Notes under the pieces: generated by a model
Seen by the model: only the letters and a program-made list of their open reading frames with translations
Told to the model about the DNA's origin: nothing
Database searches by the model: none
IMG/VR virus record: IMGVR_UViG_3300035458_000037
Location: 20,849 to 84,848 of that record
From: a virus
Length of the DNA stretch: 64,000 nt
Reading direction: 5' to 3' (one strand)
In this document: one piece after another, positions 42,493 through 52,387 of the stretch
Layout: each line of letters begins with the position of its first letter
Position numbering within the stretch: the stretch's first letter is position 1
Translations under genes and position numbers: made by a program

Positions 42493-44211
42493 TCATTTAC
42501 CAGTGAATAGATTTTTGACACCTTTTGCAGTATCAGCAGCAACTGTTTTGGCGCCTGAATAAAGAGCTTTAGGATTCATGGCACCAAGTCCGCCAATGAG
42601 ACCTAGTTTACCAGGATTGTTGGCTACAAATTTACCAATTGGTCCAACCTGTTCACCTCTTTCCATTTTGTTCTGAATATGAGCACTTGCCATGTAAGGG
42701 ACAGCGAACCCGAGTCCAGCTCTTGCCGCCATTCCTGCGACCCCTGCCTGCTTGTTTAATTCTTCAATAGCATACGGATCATTACCTATAAAAGTACCGT
42801 GATCTGGATGATCTGACATTAAAGCTCCGATACCAGCACCAAGTAATCCATAAGCACTGAATTTGTGTTCCGCATTCTTTCTGTATAATAGATAAAGCGC
42901 AGATAGAATGGAACCCATTCCCACCATGCCGGTAACACCAGCTTCTTTTCTTAAGCCTTTATCTGTTTCGTAGATTCTATGATCAACCTTGCCTATTGAT
43001 CTATCATCGATTACATGAGATGGAATAGATCGTGATAGCTTGACGGCATTGTGCGTAATATCAATATCAGCTAATCCATGAAGCCTATCATCAAGTCCTT
43101 TTACTTTGGGCTGAGATAAAACTGCTTTTTTGTTTAGGTATTGATTAGCTAGATCTTCTCGACCTTCGTGCTTCATTAGAATGTAAGCGAATTCGTTGGG
43201 TTTGGCTATTATGCCAGCATGAGTTAATGTTCCCCACGCTTCTGAAGGGTTTAGCTTCGCTAAATCCTTCAGGAGCGTGTGCGGAAGATCTTTCTCCGTT
43301 TCGCATACTCTAGCAATAGTGCCTTCCATATGAGTTGGAAGCTTTTTATAAAGAACAGCATGTTTCATTAAGCTCGAAGAGTTTGATTCAGCAAGCTTAT
43401 CAAATCTACCAATATCATAGAATGAAGCTAAGTCACAACTAAAATCAAGCGGATCATTAGCTCCACCTTCTCTTGCGATTTTCTCAAGTTGAAGTCCTGC
43501 CAAGAATGCGGGCTTTGTCACTTCACTAATATCAAAGAAACGTGGAAATAAGTTCTCCGCATAAACTCTTCGACCATCGGGAAGGATCTTTTTCATTTCA
43601 TATTTGAGATGTGGGCAATATTTCAAAGTAGTTTTGTTACGTTGACCACAAATGGAGCAGCGATCCCATGGAAGTTTTGCTCCCATAGAGACCGCTACTC
43701 GCTCATTGGCGTCTATCTTAGCTGCCGTGTCAGGTGCTTTGTCCCTGTCAACGCCAATGATCAATAAGACAGTTCGCATCTTTGGGTTCCAGATTGCAGC
43801 AGGAACATATCCAAAATGAGGATCACCGCGATCAATCTTATTCTTATGATGCTTAAAGAAATGAGCATCGTTGAATGTCTCAAAACGTCTCTTTGCTCTC
43901 ATATCAGGAGCGAGACGTTCATCTTTTTCTGCTAGTATTCCTTGCACGGGAGTATTTTGAATCCCAAGCAAACCTTCGTTGGGAAAATAATCACCATTGT
44001 TATTAGATCCCCAAGTTTCACCATCACCCATAGATGTTACTAGAATATAACTATGATTCTTTTTACGAACCATATTCCTAATAGCTTCATCTACTTCTTT
44101 AGGCAAATCTCTGCGTGATGCAGTTTTAGTAAATTCAGATTCATATCTTTCTTCTAATGACAAAGAAAGATAATTTTCATCGTCTATGTTAGAAGAAAGT
44201 AATTTATACAT
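42493..44211 (-). CDS. Putative prohead protease with long Gly-rich C-terminal extension
   Basis: A 572-residue protein upstream of scaffold-like and capsid genes. Residues about 45-240 include N-N-N-G-D-Y-F-P, D-P-H-F-G-Y-V, a V-L-L-I-I-G-V-D strand, V-A-V-S-M-G-A and C-S-I-C-G with C-P-H-L, a zinc-like pair. The His before and Ser in V-S-M-G resemble the arrangement of prohead maturation proteases such as T4 gp21, but this is a tentative match. The C-terminal 180 residues are Gly/Ala-rich with hydrophobic stretches and several K-x-A motifs. Alternative: a virion structural protein. Confidence 0.45.
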   Translation of the reverse strand: MYKLLSSNIDDENYLSLSLEERYESEFTKTASRRDLPKEVDEAIRNMVRKKNHSYILVTSMGDGETWGSNNNGDYFPNEGLLGIQNTPVQGILAEKDERLAPDMRAKRRFETFNDAHFFKHHKNKIDRGDPHFGYVPAAIWNPKMRTVLLIIGVDRDKAPDTAAKIDANERVAVSMGAKLPWDRCSICGQRNKTTLKYCPHLKYEMKKILPDGRRVYAENLFPRFFDISEVTKPAFLAGLQLEKIAREGGANDPLDFSCDLASFYDIGRFDKLAESNSSSLMKHAVLYKKLPTHMEGTIARVCETEKDLPHTLLKDLAKLNPSEAWGTLTHAGIIAKPNEFAYILMKHEGREDLANQYLNKKAVLSQPKVKGLDDRLHGLADIDITHNAVKLSRSIPSHVIDDRSIGKVDHRIYETDKGLRKEAGVTGMVGMGSILSALYLLYRKNAEHKFSAYGLLGAGIGALMSDHPDHGTFIGNDPYAIEELNKQAGVAGMAARAGLGFAVPYMASAHIQNKMERGEQVGPIGKFVANNPGKLGLIGGLGAMNPKALYSGAKTVAADTAKGVKNLFTGK

Positions 44212-44687
44212 TACATCTCACTATGTTTGCGAGCAAGCATTGCTGCACCCAATATGCTTCCACCTATAATACCAGATTTTACAAAACGTCCCATGCTAGG
44301 ATGTTTCATTAATGGCTTGATATATCTTTTGGATAATCTGGCTTTATGTTTATTAAATAATATATTTGAAGTGGTGTTTTTTTGAATCTTCTTCAAATTA
44401 CTAGGATGGAATCCGGTATGCTTTCGATAAGCCTCACGAGCTTTATGCGCCTGCGTAAGATGATGTGCATATTCTTCTTTGATTTGTATTCTGCGAGGAT
44501 TTGTTTCACTCAAAGACTCATGCTCTTTATGCAATTTCTTTAGCATATCAGTATGATGGAATTGCTTTTTCAGATGATGCTTAGCTGCTGCGGAGTGAAT
44601 AACTCCCCGTAATTGTCCAGCTTCAGAAAGAGCCTTTTGTCTTTCTGGAGTAGCTTCAAATTTTGCAGCCAGTTTAACCAGACTCAT
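44211..44687 (-). CDS. Basic head-associated protein with MSLVKLAA N-terminus
   Basis: A 158-residue very basic (Lys/His/Arg) helical protein, beginning MSLVKLAAK and ending with a short Gly/Ala hydrophobic helix (about 135-152). The charge suggests DNA contact inside the head. It belongs to the N-terminal KLA-tag set. It overlaps the next gene by one base. Confidence 0.55.
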   Translation of the reverse strand: MSLVKLAAKFEATPERQKALSEAGQLRGVIHSAAAKHHLKKQFHHTDMLKKLHKEHESLSETNPRRIQIKEEYAHHLTQAHKAREAYRKHTGFHPSNLKKIQKNTTSNILFNKHKARLSKRYIKPLMKHPSMGRFVKSGIIGGSILGAAMLARKHSEM

Positions 44688-45068
44688 CTATTCCACCTTT
44701 TTGAATCTTTCCCTGGCAAAACCACCAAGTGGAAGTCTATTGTAAGTAGCTGCGTCAATTACTTTGTCGCCCATACGATAAGACCCAGCAGCAACACCGC
44801 TCAATTGATGAGTAACAGGTTTTAATGTAGAAGCCATAGCTCCGGCAGGCTTTGATCTTTTTAAACCACCTTTAATAAGATCAGAAACCGGAGTTTCTAA
44901 TCTATTAGCCAACTTTCCAGCAGTTCGATTTCCCATTTCTCCTAAATGGCTAAGATGGCTTGTAATCAAATTACCAGCATTTTGTAAAACGCCAGCATGC
45001 TTTTCCATTTCACAAGCTACTTTGAAAAGTTCTATATCATCATATTCAAGTGCAATCTGCTTGAGCAT
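44688..45068 (-). CDS. Hypothetical head-associated protein
   Basis: A 126-residue basic protein beginning MLKQIALEYDD with FKVACEMEKHAG just after, a degenerate version of the tag. Mixed helical with Gly/Ala regions. It abuts the gene downstream with no gap. Function unknown. Confidence 0.45.
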   Translation of the reverse strand: MLKQIALEYDDIELFKVACEMEKHAGVLQNAGNLITSHLSHLGEMGNRTAGKLANRLETPVSDLIKGGLKRSKPAGAMASTLKPVTHQLSGVAAGSYRMGDKVIDAATYNRLPLGGFARERFKKVE

Positions 45069-45070
45069 AT

Positions 45071-45379
45071 CTATTCCTCAGTTGATCTTGTTTCAAATGG
45101 AGTATGCTTTTCCATATTTTCAATTACTTTAATTGTAGAAGTATTCTTAAGTTTTTTTCTTTGTATATAATTCTCGGCTTGTTTATGTTTATTTAAAATT
45201 CCGCCGATTCCAAAACCAATAGCACCACCACCAGCAATTCCTGCGACAACTGGTAACTTTAAACCCGAGGTTACACCAGCACCAATAGCAGCTCCAACAC
45301 CAGCACCAATACCACGACTGGCCCAAAGTGGCTTTAACTCAAACCCTTCATTGTCAGCAGCCAATTTGATAATTGACAC
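45071..45379 (-). CDS. Glycine-zipper protein with MSIIKLAA N-terminus
   Basis: A 102-residue protein starting MSIIKLAAD after TTGGAGATTAAGT. Residues 18-65 form two Gly/Ala-rich hydrophobic stretches with G-x3-G spacing, joined by a short turn, very like the - strand protein at 6589-6981. A membrane-inserting internal virion protein is a reasonable inference. Confidence 0.55.
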   Translation of the reverse strand: MSIIKLAADNEGFELKPLWASRGIGAGVGAAIGAGVTSGLKLPVVAGIAGGGAIGFGIGGILNKHKQAENYIQRKKLKNTSTIKVIENMEKHTPFETRSTEE

Positions 45380-45404
45380 TTAATCTCCAAGAGTAATTCT
45401 TATT

Positions 45405-45430
45405 AAACGGCTATCCGAAGATAGCCGTTT
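45405..45430 (-). terminator. Hairpin with UUCG loop, possible terminator
   Basis: AAACGGCTATC and GATAGCCGTTT form an 11-bp perfect stem; on the - strand the loop reads TTCG, a stable tetraloop. Only a short T-run follows, so it may be a processing or partial termination site rather than a full terminator. It lies after the gene ending at 45439. Confidence 0.55.
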
Positions 45431-45438
45431 CGTAAAGA

Positions 45439-46176
45439 TTATTTCTTGTGATGATGGGTTGCGCGATGGACGCCGTAACCCAGGCCAGCGAGAGCAGCAC
45501 CAGCGGTACCATAAGCAATGCCAGGGCGAGACAAGGCTTTCAGGCCAGTTTTGGTACTGAAGAGATGCTTGAGCTTCTCGCCCTTAGGAGCATGGTGATA
45601 AAGGTGCCTTGCTTCCTCAGCCTTCCAAGCGCCACCGCCATAACCATGCTTGGCAGCCGTGCCAAGGTGGTGCTTCATCCGCTTGAAGAAACCTTCCTTA
45701 TGCTGCGTGGAAGGATATTCTTTGCCAGCGCGATCATAAATACCGCTGCCAGCAGCAGTCTTGTAGAATTCGTTGGCGTCATCCGCCATTTCGTTGGCGA
45801 TCTCGATCATGGCTTCGGCCATCTTCACGAGGGTTTCCTCGCCAGACTCGTCGGCCAGCTCAGCGTAAACGGAAGCAAGCTTATTCATATCTTCAGCAAG
45901 CTCCAAGCTCTCTTCAAGAGCTTCGCCACTTTCAGCAGCGGTCTTCACCAGGGCAGCACCCAGGCGCTCACCGGCCTGATAAGTATCCAAGGCGAGGGTA
46001 GCCAAGCCCTCATCTTCGATCTCTTCGGCGATCTTTGCCATGGTTTCACCCACGGAAATGAGCGTGCGAGACTGATCAATGACATGGATTTCCTGCGCGA
46101 TTTTTTCCATGTCGGCTTCTTCAGCCGTTTTGTTGAGACCGACTTCTTCAGTCAGTTGTTCGATCAAGAGCGACAT
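45439..46176 (-). CDS. Helical head-associated protein rich in KLA motifs
   Basis: A 245-residue acidic helical protein starting MSLLIEQL after AAGGAGA. It has at least seven copies of the hexapeptide type (LNKTAE, MEKIAQ, MAKIAE, LVKTAA, MNKLAS, LVKMAE, FYKTAA) in residues 12-140, then a Gly-rich basic tail with a C-terminal hydrophobic helix. This is the densest carrier of the motif. GC-rich over most of its length. An abundant internal or scaffold protein is a possible role. Confidence 0.55.
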   Translation of the reverse strand: MSLLIEQLTEEVGLNKTAEEADMEKIAQEIHVIDQSRTLISVGETMAKIAEEIEDEGLATLALDTYQAGERLGAALVKTAAESGEALEESLELAEDMNKLASVYAELADESGEETLVKMAEAMIEIANEMADDANEFYKTAAGSGIYDRAGKEYPSTQHKEGFFKRMKHHLGTAAKHGYGGGAWKAEEARHLYHHAPKGEKLKHLFSTKTGLKALSRPGIAYGTAGAALAGLGYGVHRATHHHKK

Positions 46177-46223
46177 ATAATGTCTCCTTTTGGAAATTGT
46201 GTTGCGCAACAGTTGATTATGAC

Positions 46224-47552
46224 CTAGCCGTGTCTACCTGATTCGGTTGCTTTTTTGCCAACCTCATTTTTTCTGCCTTTGTGAATTTCCACAATCTTAG
46301 CAAGATTCAATCTTCGCTGATGATCATCCTCACCAAGAGTTCTTATTCTATCCATTCCACCCAGGAAATTACCCGCAAATTCAAGCGGCTTGTCTTGATA
46401 CCCCTGGTTGTTTTCAATTTCTCTTAATTTGCCAACGGTATTAACATCAACCCCACCAAATGAATCGAAATTCCGAATGAGTTGAGGTGCTACTAATGGG
46501 TCCATTGCAAGACTGGGGCTATGACGTGCAACTACATCAAAGTAATCCCGAGCATGAGGAATACCACGAATATCAGCATTGTTTTCAGAGATGGTTTTGA
46601 ATGCATTGTTCAATTGGCGTTCGCGCATCATTCGGGCCGCGATACCACCAATACCCCGCGCAGCAGCAGCGGTCACGCCAATTGCACCCATCGCCAGAGC
46701 ATAGGGCGCGGCAGCGGATAGTGCTTTACCTGCCCCCGACCAAATACCAGGACTTTTTTCAAGGAGAGCATTTTCGGCGGCGGTTCCTGCTGTTCCCAGA
46801 ATATTTACATCGGCAATTTTATCAAGACTCGGTGTATTACTAATCATTTCTCGACGAATATTCTCTTTTGTTTGCATCGCTCTGCCTTTTGCTTCTTGGA
46901 GAGACCCATAGAGTATCGTACTCTTCATCGGATTATTAGCAATAGTTCCTGCAATTTTGCCACCCACAGTAGCACCACCTTTTAAAGTAGCTCCAGCAGC
47001 AGCGGACATTAACCCAGCTTTCTTTTCAAGACAATTGATAATCTTGTTTTGATTATCTATTTCTTTTAATTTAATCTTGATTTCATTTGATGCAACCTTC
47101 TCAATATCAGAAGTGTAGAAATCAGGATTTTCATGAGCCAACTTTATTTTCAGCTCAGCAATCTTACTTAAAGCATTATCTTTTCTTTTCCTACAGCAAT
47201 CAATAGCAGCTCTAATATCACTGATAGTGTAAGAATTATTTTCTTCCGCAACTTTATTCAAACCTTCTCCATTATATTCTAAGGGAGTAATGACATTTGC
47301 TTTCTTTTCAATTTTCTCACTATGCCCAAGCTTCTTTTTAATTTCATCATAATGAGCTACGTCAAAAGTTTGTTCGCCAGTAGAAGCCAGTTTCATTAGA
47401 TAGCATTGCTTATTAGCTTCTTCCACAAGACGCTTTGTGTGCTCAATTGACAAATTATTATCCGATGCGTATTTTGCGATAGAATCATTCATATCGCAGT
47501 TACTCTTAAGATACGCATCGGCAATTTTATTGGCAATAGTGTTTATATCCAT
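46224..47552 (-). CDS. Large head-associated protein with KLA motifs and hydrophobic segments
   Basis: A 442-residue protein right after terminase. It carries repeats of the hexapeptide (LMKLAS, IEKKAN, LNKVAE, LSKIAE, IEKVAS, LEKKAG, LDKIAD) in its first 250 residues and two long Gly/Ala hydrophobic regions (about 180-205 and 270-300). A role as internal virion or ejection protein is plausible. No family is recognised. Confidence 0.5.
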   Translation of the reverse strand: MDINTIANKIADAYLKSNCDMNDSIAKYASDNNLSIEHTKRLVEEANKQCYLMKLASTGEQTFDVAHYDEIKKKLGHSEKIEKKANVITPLEYNGEGLNKVAEENNSYTISDIRAAIDCCRKRKDNALSKIAELKIKLAHENPDFYTSDIEKVASNEIKIKLKEIDNQNKIINCLEKKAGLMSAAAGATLKGGATVGGKIAGTIANNPMKSTILYGSLQEAKGRAMQTKENIRREMISNTPSLDKIADVNILGTAGTAAENALLEKSPGIWSGAGKALSAAAPYALAMGAIGVTAAAARGIGGIAARMMRERQLNNAFKTISENNADIRGIPHARDYFDVVARHSPSLAMDPLVAPQLIRNFDSFGGVDVNTVGKLREIENNQGYQDKPLEFAGNFLGGMDRIRTLGEDDHQRRLNLAKIVEIHKGRKNEVGKKATESGRHG

Positions 47553-47603: not shown

Positions 47604-49184
47604 TCAATCATTCTGCCAAATTTGCTCGTCGGCATCATCTTCGCCACGTCTATACCGGGTGCTGGGTTTTTGGCCGGTGCGAACCAACCACGTCACCCGC
47701 ATATAGACCAAGGAATGAAAACTATCGTCTGGTTGAGTATGAATGTATCGCATTTGTCTAAGCTTATCAGAATATTCAGAGCTTATATTCAAGTAATCTT
47801 TACCAATATCCTCAAATTCTGACCATACAAAAGGCTCAATCTTTTCTGCTTTCAACGCATTAAATGCATCGGTCATAACTTCTGTTCTGTTGGTTACATA
47901 AGTTGCAGCGTCTTCGTCATAGGCTACAAAATGTTTTATATAAGCATGACGGTATGTAACATATATGATATTACTTGGAAGCAGCGTTCTCATTCTATCA
48001 TTAAGACCAAAACCAAAACCCAAATCAGCTCCAACGTATCTGACTTTAAAGTGAAGTAATGTTTTACACATGGATGGTATCAAATTCTCGGATGCAGCTT
48101 CTTTACCTAAATACCTTTTCGAGAAAACTATAAGGAACTTATTGACTCGTGTATCAAAATATCCAATAGTTAAAATAGAAAATCCTGTATTACCACCGCC
48201 CCAATCAATACCAGCGTAGAATTCAAAGCTTTTACAATCTTCTGGAATATCAATCCATTGTTGTCGAGTGGGATGACATACAGATATTAATTCATCACGG
48301 GAAATGGGTTTTGATCCGTTATCATAAGATTCTCCAAACACTTCATTCATTAATGCGCCTGTATCATAATTGCGCATCTTAAAATGAAGTTCCTTCCAAT
48401 CTACATCACACTTGGGTAATATGATATAAGGAAGTTTAAATCCTGCAACTTCAGATTCCCGAGCTTGAACCCAATATCCTTTAAGCGTATTAAGTTCATA
48501 ATCACATTTCGTACACCACAATCCCGGTCGATCCAAATGAACTAGATCAATTCCAAGTTTATTGTGATGGCCGCATCTTCTGCATTTAACATGCCATTCA
48601 CATCCGCTACTGCTTTCATATATCGTGTGAATAGGATTATCAAACGTTTTTGGTGTTCCACTAGAAACAAATTGTGAATCTCTCTGCTTCTGTGCGCAAG
48701 CGTCAATAACTGGAATCACTTCGATGAGCATGTCTTGAATCTCATCTTTCAAGACAAGCTTTGCCGTGATACCGCGAATACTATCCGCGTCAAAGTAAGC
48801 TGATCTAAAATACATTGTTGAATAGTTCTTGAGACGTTTTTCCTCTATTCTAAATCCTCTGATGCCAGGATAGAAATTTGCTTTTAGAAGTGGTGATACT
48901 TCAAAAGCTTCATCAATCTTTTTACGCGAAAACACACCCGTCTGCTTGCCCGTGGGTGATACATACAACGCACTCATGTGCGGACGGAGACATACATTCG
49001 ATAGGAGAATACCAGAAAGCGAAGTGCTCTTTTCTGTCTGTCTAGCAGCGATGAGGATTGTCCTCTTGAACTGATTATTAATAATTGGATATATATATGG
49101 ACGATCAGTAAATCTCCAATCATGTCCATCGAGTTTTACTACTCGTTGGAGAAAATCGGTGTTTCGTATTTTAATGAGATCCAT
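47604..49184 (-). CDS. terL: Terminase large subunit
   Basis: A 526-residue DNA-packaging motor. The ATPase half has a P-loop at A-A-R-Q-T-E-K-S-T (46-54), where E51 replaces the usual Gly, and Walker B with catalytic Glu L-V-L-K-D-E (143-148). A zinc ribbon CRRC and CTKC follows (about 199-227). The nuclease half starts with A-G-I-D-W-G-G-G (about 317-324), with later acidic residues (A-D-L-G, D-D-S-F). The layout with a ribbon between the halves recalls the lambda gpA-type terminases. First gene of the head module. Confidence 0.9.
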   Translation of the reverse strand: MDLIKIRNTDFLQRVVKLDGHDWRFTDRPYIYPIINNQFKRTILIAARQTEKSTSLSGILLSNVCLRPHMSALYVSPTGKQTGVFSRKKIDEAFEVSPLLKANFYPGIRGFRIEEKRLKNYSTMYFRSAYFDADSIRGITAKLVLKDEIQDMLIEVIPVIDACAQKQRDSQFVSSGTPKTFDNPIHTIYESSSGCEWHVKCRRCGHHNKLGIDLVHLDRPGLWCTKCDYELNTLKGYWVQARESEVAGFKLPYIILPKCDVDWKELHFKMRNYDTGALMNEVFGESYDNGSKPISRDELISVCHPTRQQWIDIPEDCKSFEFYAGIDWGGGNTGFSILTIGYFDTRVNKFLIVFSKRYLGKEAASENLIPSMCKTLLHFKVRYVGADLGFGFGLNDRMRTLLPSNIIYVTYRHAYIKHFVAYDEDAATYVTNRTEVMTDAFNALKAEKIEPFVWSEFEDIGKDYLNISSEYSDKLRQMRYIHTQPDDSFHSLVYMRVTWLVRTGQKPSTRYRRGEDDADEQIWQND

Positions 49185-49191
49185 TGAGCAC

Positions 49192-49221
49192 CTGCAAAAA
49201 TTAAGGAAATAATGTTATAAT
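49192..49221 (+). promoter_or_regulatory. Phage promoter, TGCAA/TATAAT type
   Basis: CTGCAA, 18 bases, TATAAT followed by ATATTTG, with TGT before the -10. It lies in the divergent gap between terminase (-) and the replication operon (+). Confidence 0.8.
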
Positions 49222-49227
49222 ATATTT

Positions 49228-49269
49228 GAAGTTGAATTATGTCTATCGCATAATTGACTTCTTTTTTTT
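49228..49269 (+). terminator. Promoter-proximal attenuator-like hairpin
   Basis: GAAGT..AATTATG pairs with CATAATT..ACTTC (5 plus 7 bp with a small internal loop), followed by eight T, only a few bases after the transcription start. It is shaped like an intrinsic terminator placed before the first gene, so it likely attenuates the operon. A four-codon frame (ATG TCT ATC GCA TAA, 49239-49253) lies in the hairpin. Confidence 0.6.
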
Positions 49270-49286
49270 ATCTCATAGGAGAAGAG

Positions 49287-50180
49287 ATGGAATATATTAC
49301 GGATTGGAGATTACTCAAAAATAAAGTAGCTGAGTGTATGCGACAAAGTGGTTGGGCAGACTTGTGCAAAATTACAAAAAACGCTTCTAAAGAAGCTAAT
49401 AGTTATTTATATTTTTATTTTATAACAGTCGAAGAAAAGAATGTTAATAAAAATGATTTAAAAGATAAACTTATGTTTGCTAGTTTTAGAGCTAAATTTT
49501 TAGCGTCCTATGCTGTAGATATAATAGTAGAATATGATTTTAGTTCAGAACTTTATAACGAACTTCGTAGATCAGCTCCATTAGATAGATCGCTTACAAT
49601 TTCAAATATATTAAGATTACCTTATAATTGTTTTGCTATTAATATAGATAAAACCAGAAAGTGGAGATATGCTTTAATAATAAAAGAAGAAGATTCTATC
49701 ATAATTGCAACCACCGAAGCTCTTAGCATAATCCCAAATAATACTACAATGGGAGAAATTTATGATGCATGTGAAAGCGAAAATTCTATTACTCTTCAAA
49801 CTGCTTTTATAAAAATGATAGCATATATAACTAACAACAAGGACGTAATTGAATTTAATAAAATTGTAGAATTACATAATGGAGAACCAAGCAAAAAACG
49901 TAAGAAAAAACCTATCAAAATTAAACAAGTAACAGGAGTCGTGGGAACTATATTTCATAGATCTATGCAACGCTGGAAACAAGCGCAAGAAACAGAATAT
50001 CAAAATAATCCAGAACTTCGTAATAAGCAAAGACCTCATTGTCGTGGAGGGCATCACCAAATTTATTGGACCGGAAAGGGTCGTACTGAGGCAAGACTGG
50101 TTTTTGTGCATCCATATGATGTAAATATAGTAGATAAAGAAGATAAAGAAAATATGGAAATTCAATACAAAGTTAAGTAA
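49287..50180 (+). CDS. AcrVA2-like protein (putative anti-CRISPR family)
   Basis: A 297-residue protein starting at ATG after AGGAGAAGAG. The C-terminal block R-P-H-C-R-G-G-H-H-Q-I-Y-W-T-G (249-263) followed by P-Y-D-V-N closely resembles the end of AcrVA2 (R-P-H-x-R-R-G-H-W-H-x-Y-W-x-G then P-x-x-V-N, from memory), and the upstream order of a helix with G-x-x-x-H-R-S-M-Q-R-W and an L-P-Y-N-C-F-A-I-N-I strand also fits. AcrVA2 reduces Cas12a production in Moraxella; distant relatives occur in phages and plasmids with unknown targets. First gene behind an early-type promoter. Confidence 0.6.
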   Translation: MEYITDWRLLKNKVAECMRQSGWADLCKITKNASKEANSYLYFYFITVEEKNVNKNDLKDKLMFASFRAKFLASYAVDIIVEYDFSSELYNELRRSAPLDRSLTISNILRLPYNCFAINIDKTRKWRYALIIKEEDSIIIATTEALSIIPNNTTMGEIYDACESENSITLQTAFIKMIAYITNNKDVIEFNKIVELHNGEPSKKRKKKPIKIKQVTGVVGTIFHRSMQRWKQAQETEYQNNPELRNKQRPHCRGGHHQIYWTGKGRTEARLVFVHPYDVNIVDKEDKENMEIQYKVK

Positions 50181-50186
50181 ATGTGT

Positions 50187-50225
50187 TACACTTCAAATAG
50201 AAGCTCTTTTTCTATTTGGAGTGTA
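50187..50225 (+). promoter_or_regulatory. Hairpin sequestering a Shine-Dalgarno
   Basis: TACACTTCAAATAGAA and TTCTATTTGGAGTGTA pair over 16 bases with one G-T wobble around a seven-base loop. The 3' arm includes GGAG, the ribosome binding site of the gene starting at 50229. The hairpin fills the whole gap between two genes, so it can limit translation of the nuclease or act as a processing site. Confidence 0.65.
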
Positions 50226-50228
50226 GCA

Positions 50229-50627
50229 ATGTCCGAAGCCTCATTTAGTTTAGCTTTTATAACCTTGATGCGCAAAACATACGGAAGAGATATCTGGATT
50301 GAGAAAGTCATTCGTCCTGATAAAAAAGCAGAACCGGATATTCAAGGTGTCTTCAAAGGAATGCCTTTCTTTTTTGAGTGTAAGTTACTCAATAGTAAGA
50401 GTTTTACAACTTTACATGAGTTCAGTGATTTACAAATAGATGTATTAAAGACACGATCACTCTCTGGTGCCGTATGTTTAGGATTATTGTTCTGTGATAA
50501 AGAAGTAAAATACTTAAAAGCAGAAGAATTGGTTAATCGAGTTACGAAGAAGGAATGGGAGAATGCTTACATGTTCAATATACTAGGAATATACTTAGAT
50601 TGGAAGAAGAAAATATGCCAAATGTAA
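50229..50627 (+). CDS. VRR-NUC/PD-(D/E)XK nuclease, possible junction resolvase
   Basis: A 132-residue protein with the compact PD-(D/E)XK core: E-P-D-I (D37) then E50-x-K52 in F-F-F-E-C-K, the spacing of VRR-NUC and small resolvase-type nucleases. It overlaps the SNF2-like helicase by 13 bases, a pairing common in phage replication modules. It may resolve branched DNA. Its translation may be controlled by the hairpin before it. Confidence 0.65.
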   Translation: MSEASFSLAFITLMRKTYGRDIWIEKVIRPDKKAEPDIQGVFKGMPFFFECKLLNSKSFTTLHEFSDLQIDVLKTRSLSGAVCLGLLFCDKEVKYLKAEELVNRVTKKEWENAYMFNILGIYLDWKKKICQM

Positions 50628-52387
50628 AAATCTCACTTCACGAAAGTGATCCAAGTAAGTTTTATATTGAGACTGATAGAGATGTATCGATGTTCGGTTG
50701 GAAAACTGAAAGAAAGTTTCATTCATACTTAATGGAAATGTCATGCTGGAACCTTCTTGATTTGTATATCAATAAAGATCGTATAGGACTAGAATTAGAG
50801 CTTGACTCACGTGTAGAACCAATATTTGAGATGCTCAGAAATGAAATGAGAAAATATAATGAAGCTAAAAAGATAAAAATATTATCAATGACTGATATCA
50901 ATGATATGTGGGAAGAAGAAGGTTTCCCAAGGCTCTTTCCAAAAATTGAAGCTGAGGCATATCAGAAACGTATGGTTTTATGGTTATTAGCAGCACAAAA
51001 AGCATGTTGCTTCATGGAACAAGGAACTGGAAAAACTCCCACGGGTGTTTTCCTTTTGGGCAAACTTTTACATGAAAAACTAGTAAGTAAACCGATAGTA
51101 TTTGCTCCGGTATCATTACTTAACAACACAGCGTGGTTCAAGGATCTTGAAAGATTCACGGACTTCCTCCCTATTAACCTTCGAGTTGATCGGGAGGTCA
51201 CGATGAAAAATGAAATCCATTTCGTTAACTATGATAAACTACAACACTGGTGTTTTATCAAAACAAAAACCGCAGAACACTCATATGACAAATGTAATTA
51301 TTTCGAACGAGAGAAATTTGATGCAATATTCTATGATGAATCATCCACACTTAAAACTCATTCGTCATATAGAAGTAAAGCATTTGTAAAAATATCTAGG
51401 CATGCAAAATACATAGCACTTGCATCAGGAACTCCATCGCCGTCAACTATCTTTCAAATCTGGACTCAGATGAGAAGCATAGGCTCAGTGCTTGGGGATG
51501 AATATACGCCTTTTGAAATGCGCTATGGAATACAGGTAGCTTGTGGTCCAGTTAAAAAATGGATTCCTAGAACTGGCGCAAATCAAGAAATACGTTCTCG
51601 CATAGATAAAGTAACATATTTCATAAAGCGGGCAGATGTATTGGATCTTCCCAAGAGACATTATATTGATATCGATGTAGATTTATGCGAAGAGCATATG
51701 CAGTTATACAAAAAGATTGAGAAAGATTATATTGCAGCCGTCCAGGGGTTAGATCAGGATGGCCAACCCCTGGATGCCAAGGTGAAGGCCGAACATGAGA
51801 TCGTCGCCCGGATGCGTCTGCTCCAAGTCACAAGTGGTTTCGTTACCGTTGAGAATGAAGATGGCGATAAACAAATATCTACTTTATTATGGAATGCTAA
51901 GCTAGATAAGCTTGATGAGATAGCTCAGAAGCATCTAGGTGCTTCTGAGGATAACCATATCATCATTTGGTGCAGATTTCGTTGGGAAGTAGACACTATT
52001 TACAACAAATACAAAGATACCGCTGTCTATTTATATGGAGGGCTATCCGAAGCAAAAAGAAGGACTTTACTCAATCGATGGTTGGATGATCCAACATGTA
52101 AGATCATGATAGCTATCCCAGCAGCAGCAAAGTTTGGCCATACATGGCTAAAAGCAAATGCATCAATTTATTTTACTGGCACAGATGATTACGAAGATTA
52201 TTCACAATCTAGGGATCGTAATTATCGTCGCGGTCAAGATAGAGAAGTAACAGAATACAAACTAATTACAAATAAAACTATAGAAAGAAAAATTTGGTTA
52301 GCAATTACTACCAAACAAAGACTTGATACATTTCTTAAAAGTTGGGCACTAGAGCAAGCTCATGTAATTAATAATATCATGACATAA
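50615..52387 (+). CDS. SNF2-like DNA helicase
   Basis: A 590-residue SF2 helicase: an N-terminal domain (1-120), Walker A in F-M-E-Q-G-T-G-K-T (about 131-139), motif II D-E-S-S (about 242, in place of DEAH), A-S-G-T-P motif III, and a C-terminal lobe with W-C-R-F-R-W, and Q-S-R-D-R-N-Y-R-R-G-Q-D motif VI. It is typical of phage SNF2-family proteins near replication genes, possibly remodelling forks or branched DNA. A short GC-rich patch with two TCCAGGGG-type octamers lies at 51741-51774. Confidence 0.85.
   Translation: MPNVKISLHESDPSKFYIETDRDVSMFGWKTERKFHSYLMEMSCWNLLDLYINKDRIGLELELDSRVEPIFEMLRNEMRKYNEAKKIKILSMTDINDMWEEEGFPRLFPKIEAEAYQKRMVLWLLAAQKACCFMEQGTGKTPTGVFLLGKLLHEKLVSKPIVFAPVSLLNNTAWFKDLERFTDFLPINLRVDREVTMKNEIHFVNYDKLQHWCFIKTKTAEHSYDKCNYFEREKFDAIFYDESSTLKTHSSYRSKAFVKISRHAKYIALASGTPSPSTIFQIWTQMRSIGSVLGDEYTPFEMRYGIQVACGPVKKWIPRTGANQEIRSRIDKVTYFIKRADVLDLPKRHYIDIDVDLCEEHMQLYKKIEKDYIAAVQGLDQDGQPLDAKVKAEHEIVARMRLLQVTSGFVTVENEDGDKQISTLLWNAKLDKLDEIAQKHLGASEDNHIIIWCRFRWEVDTIYNKYKDTAVYLYGGLSEAKRRTLLNRWLDDPTCKIMIAIPAAAKFGHTWLKANASIYFTGTDDYEDYSQSRDRNYRRGQDREVTEYKLITNKTIERKIWLAITTKQRLDTFLKSWALEQAHVINNIMT

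Follow-up and report, generated by a model that had tools for sequence, protein, structure and literature searches.

Two mobile-element proteins are the closest described systems for the gene considered here. The first is AcrVA2, which is reported to recognize nascent Cas12a and to cause the translation-dependent loss of its mRNA (reviewed in PMC13131331, cited in PMC10403363). AcrVA2 action requires both translation and the sequence of the peptide, and is described as the first documented case of peptide-addressed, translation-coupled mRNA decay in bacteria (PMC13131331). AcrVA2-like proteins were reported earlier in huge phages (PMC7162821). The second is FinQ, a fertility inhibition protein that inhibits F-plasmid transfer and under which transcripts of the F tra operon are lost at multiple sites, an effect read as Rho-independent termination (PMC8744291).

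Sequence comparisons indicate that AcrVA2 and FinQ are homologues. The AcrVA2 protein of Shewanella phage Y11, which matches 7ci1 at E=1.5e-72 and the PHROGs family phrog_6160 at E=1.1e-58, retrieves FinQ of IncI plasmids by tblastn (E-value near 3e-14, with 95% of its length covered), and FinQ matches 7ci1 at E=3.9e-17. The two proteins are nowhere mentioned together in the literature searched (a set without preprints and most subscription papers), which does not in itself prove the link to be new. In IncI1 plasmid pEK204 (L015:565-1656), the annotated FinQ spans 877-1656 (259 amino acids), and the open frame runs from 565 (363 amino acids). The 104 residues left out by the annotation correspond in alignment to the N-terminus of the family, so the start codon was probably placed too far downstream.

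The DNA analyzed here, called the window, is a stretch of 64,000 nucleotides corresponding to positions 20849-84848 of an 84,848-base virus record. It carries a gene for a 297-amino-acid protein (the window protein) in the following setting.

47604-49184, minus strand: terL, the first gene of the leftward operon
49185-49286, no strand assigned: divergent intergenic region of 102 bp between terL (minus strand) and the rightward operon, presumed to hold an early promoter (consensus scan not above chance)
49277-49281, plus strand: ribosome-binding site AGGAG, 5' of the ATG (from the sequence)
49287-50180, plus strand: AcrVA2/FinQ-family (phrog_6160) gene, 297 amino acids, ATG start, open reading frame (phrog_6160 E=1.1e-7; family HMM E=1.7e-20; fold match 7ci1/7ci2)
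50031-50075, plus strand: signature RPHCRGGHHQIYWTG, residues 249-263 (alignments and pattern scans)
50181-50627, plus strand: RecU-like Holliday-junction resolvase, the next operon gene (PF03838 E=4.4e-6; phrog_843 E=8.5e-7)
50615-52387, plus strand: SNF2-type helicase (PF00176 E=1.3e-12; phrog_62 E=1.3e-89)

The sequence-only reading had likened this protein to AcrVA2 on the basis of a C-terminal RPHxRxGHxxxYWxG block followed by PxxVN. Indeed, the protein ends with RPHCRGGHHQIYWTG-KGRTEARLVFVHPYDVN, wherein P276, V279, and N280 lie downstream of the signature, and it conforms to the family pattern RPHxRxxHxxx[YF]WxG followed by P..V. The first part of this pattern occurs once across the six frames of the window, and a degenerate DNA version of the block retrieves 88 stretches from IMG/VR, nearly all with an HMM-confirmed family member. 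By these scans, the pattern RPHxRxxHxxx[YF]WxG is close to diagnostic of the AcrVA2/FinQ family.

The likeness to AcrVA2 extends past the C-terminal block when examined by HMM search. A family profile was prepared from 91 relatives, gathered from phages, plasmids, and an IMG/VR DNA-pattern scan for the block, with the window protein left out and E-values calculated for 10,000 sequences. The whole window protein scores 72.9 bits against this profile (E=1.7e-20), and 27.0 bits (E=1.6e-6) are obtained with residues 1-220 alone, which exclude the block; among 2,500 shuffled sequences, the highest score is 10.5 bits. These findings confirm that the window protein is a member of the AcrVA2/FinQ family over its full length, and they go against the outcome named in advance as refuting the sequence-only reading, a likeness limited to the short C-terminal block. 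Its match to phrog_6160 (E=1.1e-7) is weak and partial, covering the C-terminal half (positions 204-310 of 322), and all 63 aligned members, the window protein included, match this PHROGs family, for which no function is recorded. Pairwise comparison with AcrVA2 (7ci1) by phmmer is weak, with E=2 for the full-length query and 0.5 for its C-terminal part. Pfam, NCBIfam, and PADLOC yielded no family for the window protein; across the 63 family members, any given Pfam model has at most two matches, and these are weak. No close relative turned up when phages were searched directly by tblastn or when IMG/VR was scanned with a peptide pattern. Matches to designed beta-propellers were discarded as a short repeat artefact.

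Structure prediction points in the same direction as the profile. An AlphaFold2 model based on the alignment of 63 sequences (pLDDT 77.1, pTM 0.71) has as its top PDB match AcrVA2 with a Cas12a peptide (7ci1/7ci2; Foldseek E=1.4e-7, TM 0.50). Alignment of the model with AcrVA2 by VIA-align gives Z=12.0 over 238 residues (rmsd 6.3), where the next unrelated structure reaches Z 7.3. AcrVA2 thus ranks first in the structural comparison that the sequence-only reading had proposed as a check, for a model built with the family alignment; the fold match depends on that alignment, the single-sequence model being poor (pLDDT 36.7). On this footing, the predicted fold of the window protein is shown to be AcrVA2-like. 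Two other structural leads were set aside. A hint of an HPF/YfiA (ribosome hibernation factor) domain (profile E=0.52, Foldseek E about 0.5) was dropped, as comparison with the E. coli RaiA profile gave a probability of 0.1% and no family member matches Ribosomal_S30AE, and similarity to plant ribosome-inactivating proteins (Z about 3) lies at noise level.

Conservation across the family is greatest at the C-terminus, where the last 38 alignment columns carry 2.67 bits per column vs 1.3-1.5 elsewhere, and where H251, R253, H256, and G263 (numbered as in the window protein) vary little or not at all. From this peak we infer a common effector part joined to diverging recognition parts. The window protein departs from several family-wide residues: Y75 stands in place of the W in the aW..tk.Y motif, RRAHW is replaced by GGHH, and the GFF motif is absent. 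Given these lost residues, its activity may differ from that of its relatives.

The window protein resembles the AcrVA2 proteins of Moraxella (7ci1/7ci2) and Shewanella phage Y11 (ORF43) in its full-length profile homology, its predicted fold, its carriage by a phage, and its C-terminal RPHxRxGHxxxYWxG followed by VN. It differs from AcrVA2 in having a shorter middle region, in lacking GFF, and in having GGHH in place of RRGHW. With FinQ it has in common the C-terminal block and a longer C-terminal tail after VN, and direct similarity is confined to the C-terminal part; FinQ differs in being plasmid-borne and in targeting the F tra operon. When 166 sequences were placed in a tree with FastTree, the window protein clustered with proteins of metagenomic phages (L091, L108, L110, and L095; support 0.91), and the leaves farthest from it include AcrVA2 proper and FinQ. 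Ranked by tree distance among the other 165 leaves, the AcrVA2 proteins of M. osloensis, Y11, and Mcat24 stand at 145, 154, and 161. The members of its clade (L091/L107, L108, L109/L110, and L095/L111) are about 21-28% identical to the window protein, and the ending RxGHxxxYWTGKGR...FxHPxxVN...EIQ is common to L091, L095, and the window protein. With 12-16% identity to AcrVA2 and a deep clade of its own, the window protein is not an AcrVA2 orthologue. Rather, it is a new and deeply diverged member of a known family, and one of the most diverged.

Relatives had been said to occur in both phages and plasmids, and this holds, with family members scattered over unrelated elements of both kinds. 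A pattern scan restricted to one genome per species returned 105 stretches, most with an HMM-confirmed member. One phage relative carries an unrelated label: gp126 of Erwinia phage RisingSun (L011:301-1302), annotated as a “putative mycothiosynthase,” is an AcrVA2/FinQ-family protein.

The explanation that best accounts for these observations, to which we attach roughly even confidence, is that the gene encodes a divergent takeover protein of the AcrVA2/FinQ family that recognizes a nascent protein other than Cas12a and causes loss of its mRNA. The protein would be made early from the rightward replication operon. Its variable N-terminal and middle domains would bind a short stretch of a particular protein as it leaves the ribosome, and the almost invariant C-terminal block, H-x-R-x2-H-x4-W-x-G, would serve the step that leads to loss of the mRNA being translated. 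The target would be a protein of the host or of a rival element. This mechanism is extrapolated from relatives with 12-25% identity.

A broader proposal, which we put forward tentatively and hold to be somewhat less probable, is that AcrVA2, FinQ, and the window protein belong to one broad mobile-element family of mRNA destroyers guided by nascent peptides, whose C-terminal effector stays invariant as the recognition parts diverge. The many targets would then include both Cas12a and the F tra operon, the “termination at multiple sites” ascribed to FinQ would be translation-coupled mRNA decay, and the window gene would be aimed at a host protein. That FinQ falls in one family with many proteins of phages and plasmids whose hosts have no detectable Cas12a suggests a general takeover tool, and it makes the old plasmid phenotype of FinQ directly testable as an AcrVA2-type mechanism. 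The strongly diverged window protein helps to reveal which residues are essential. The wider interest lies in the unity of AcrVA2 and FinQ and in how rarely Cas12a accompanies the family, more than in the window gene alone.

Among the alternatives, the one that survives best, although we regard it as unlikely, is a FinQ-like action in which particular transcripts, whether from the host, a rival element, or the phage, are terminated prematurely. The published description of the homologous FinQ as a Rho-independent terminator of tra transcription (PMC8744291) is consistent with such an activity. However, the FinQ data as summarized there amount to transcript loss, which co-translational decay would be expected to produce as well, and the family member AcrVA2 needs translation and the peptide sequence (PMC13131331).

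Next in standing is the doubtful proposal that the protein is an internal regulator that lowers the level of one of the phage's own proteins and so times the switch from replication to late functions, with no role in counter-defence. The position of the gene argues for this: it lies where the replication operon, running rightward, meets the leftward structural operon. As had been noted from the sequence, it is the first gene of the former, 102 bp from the divergent terL. In order, this operon encodes the 297-amino-acid protein, the RecU-like resolvase, the SNF2 helicase, a large primase/helicase-like protein, and an SbcC-like ATPase, with a RecD2-like helicase farther along. The nuclease and helicase neighbors described earlier are present, but as replication and recombination genes they do not provide the counter-defence context that had been read into them. 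Nor was a strong promoter found, since the 10 promoter-like sites detected are at chance frequency (shuffled sequence has 8.2 +/- 3.1), and around the gene start even the best rightward candidates agree with the consensus at only 9 of 12 positions. Against an internal regulator, the family is scattered over unrelated phages and plasmids, and the clade relatives inspected have differing neighborhoods, with no common partner genes and no neighbor genes shared with the window gene. The gene is also AT-rich, with a GC3 of 0.18 vs 0.26-0.39 in downstream genes, which suggests that it is an acquired accessory gene and fits a recent acquisition.

That the window protein is a true anti-CRISPR against Cas12a in the manner of AcrVA2 is improbable. 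It has its family and fold in common with AcrVA2, the characterized phage/prophage member, but its distance from the Moraxella/Shewanella AcrVA2 group ranks at about 145-161 of 165. Furthermore, a search for Cas12a (TIGR04330) in 81 distinct genomes with a family gene, many of them metagenome-assembled and possibly incomplete, detected it in one, Moraxella lacunata, which belongs to the genus of AcrVA2 itself and serves as a positive control for the search. This scarcity, with 80 of the 81 genomes lacking detectable Cas12a, makes Cas12a an unlikely target of the window protein, and anti-Cas12a activity is likewise judged unlikely on this count and on the tree distance. None of the ten published residues of the docked Cas12a-peptide pocket is kept, where the pocket is a docking model and the alignment is gappy (PMC10846135). 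Finally, the weak direct phmmer comparisons would fit a chance or convergent C-terminal block on a protein unrelated to AcrVA2, but the profile E-values with and without the block, the 2,500 shuffles, the phrog_6160 match, and the fold match leave this with almost no likelihood.

The phage that carries the gene is novel and 85 kb or larger. Its terminase reaches no more than about 27% identity with any phage in the collection searched, its primase-like protein matches one fragment only, and no close phage emerged when the collections were searched with its terminase, helicase, primase, and SbcC-like genes. No tRNAs were found in the 64-kb window. Within the replication operon, the product of 57887-58768 matches phrog_10081, labeled “transposase,” at E=3.4e-24 and has no Pfam match; the label is doubtful for a gene at this location. 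Past terL, the leftward operon (44211-47552, minus strand) encodes several small proteins with no assigned function. The coding strand and the sign of the GC skew flip together near 49.2 kb.
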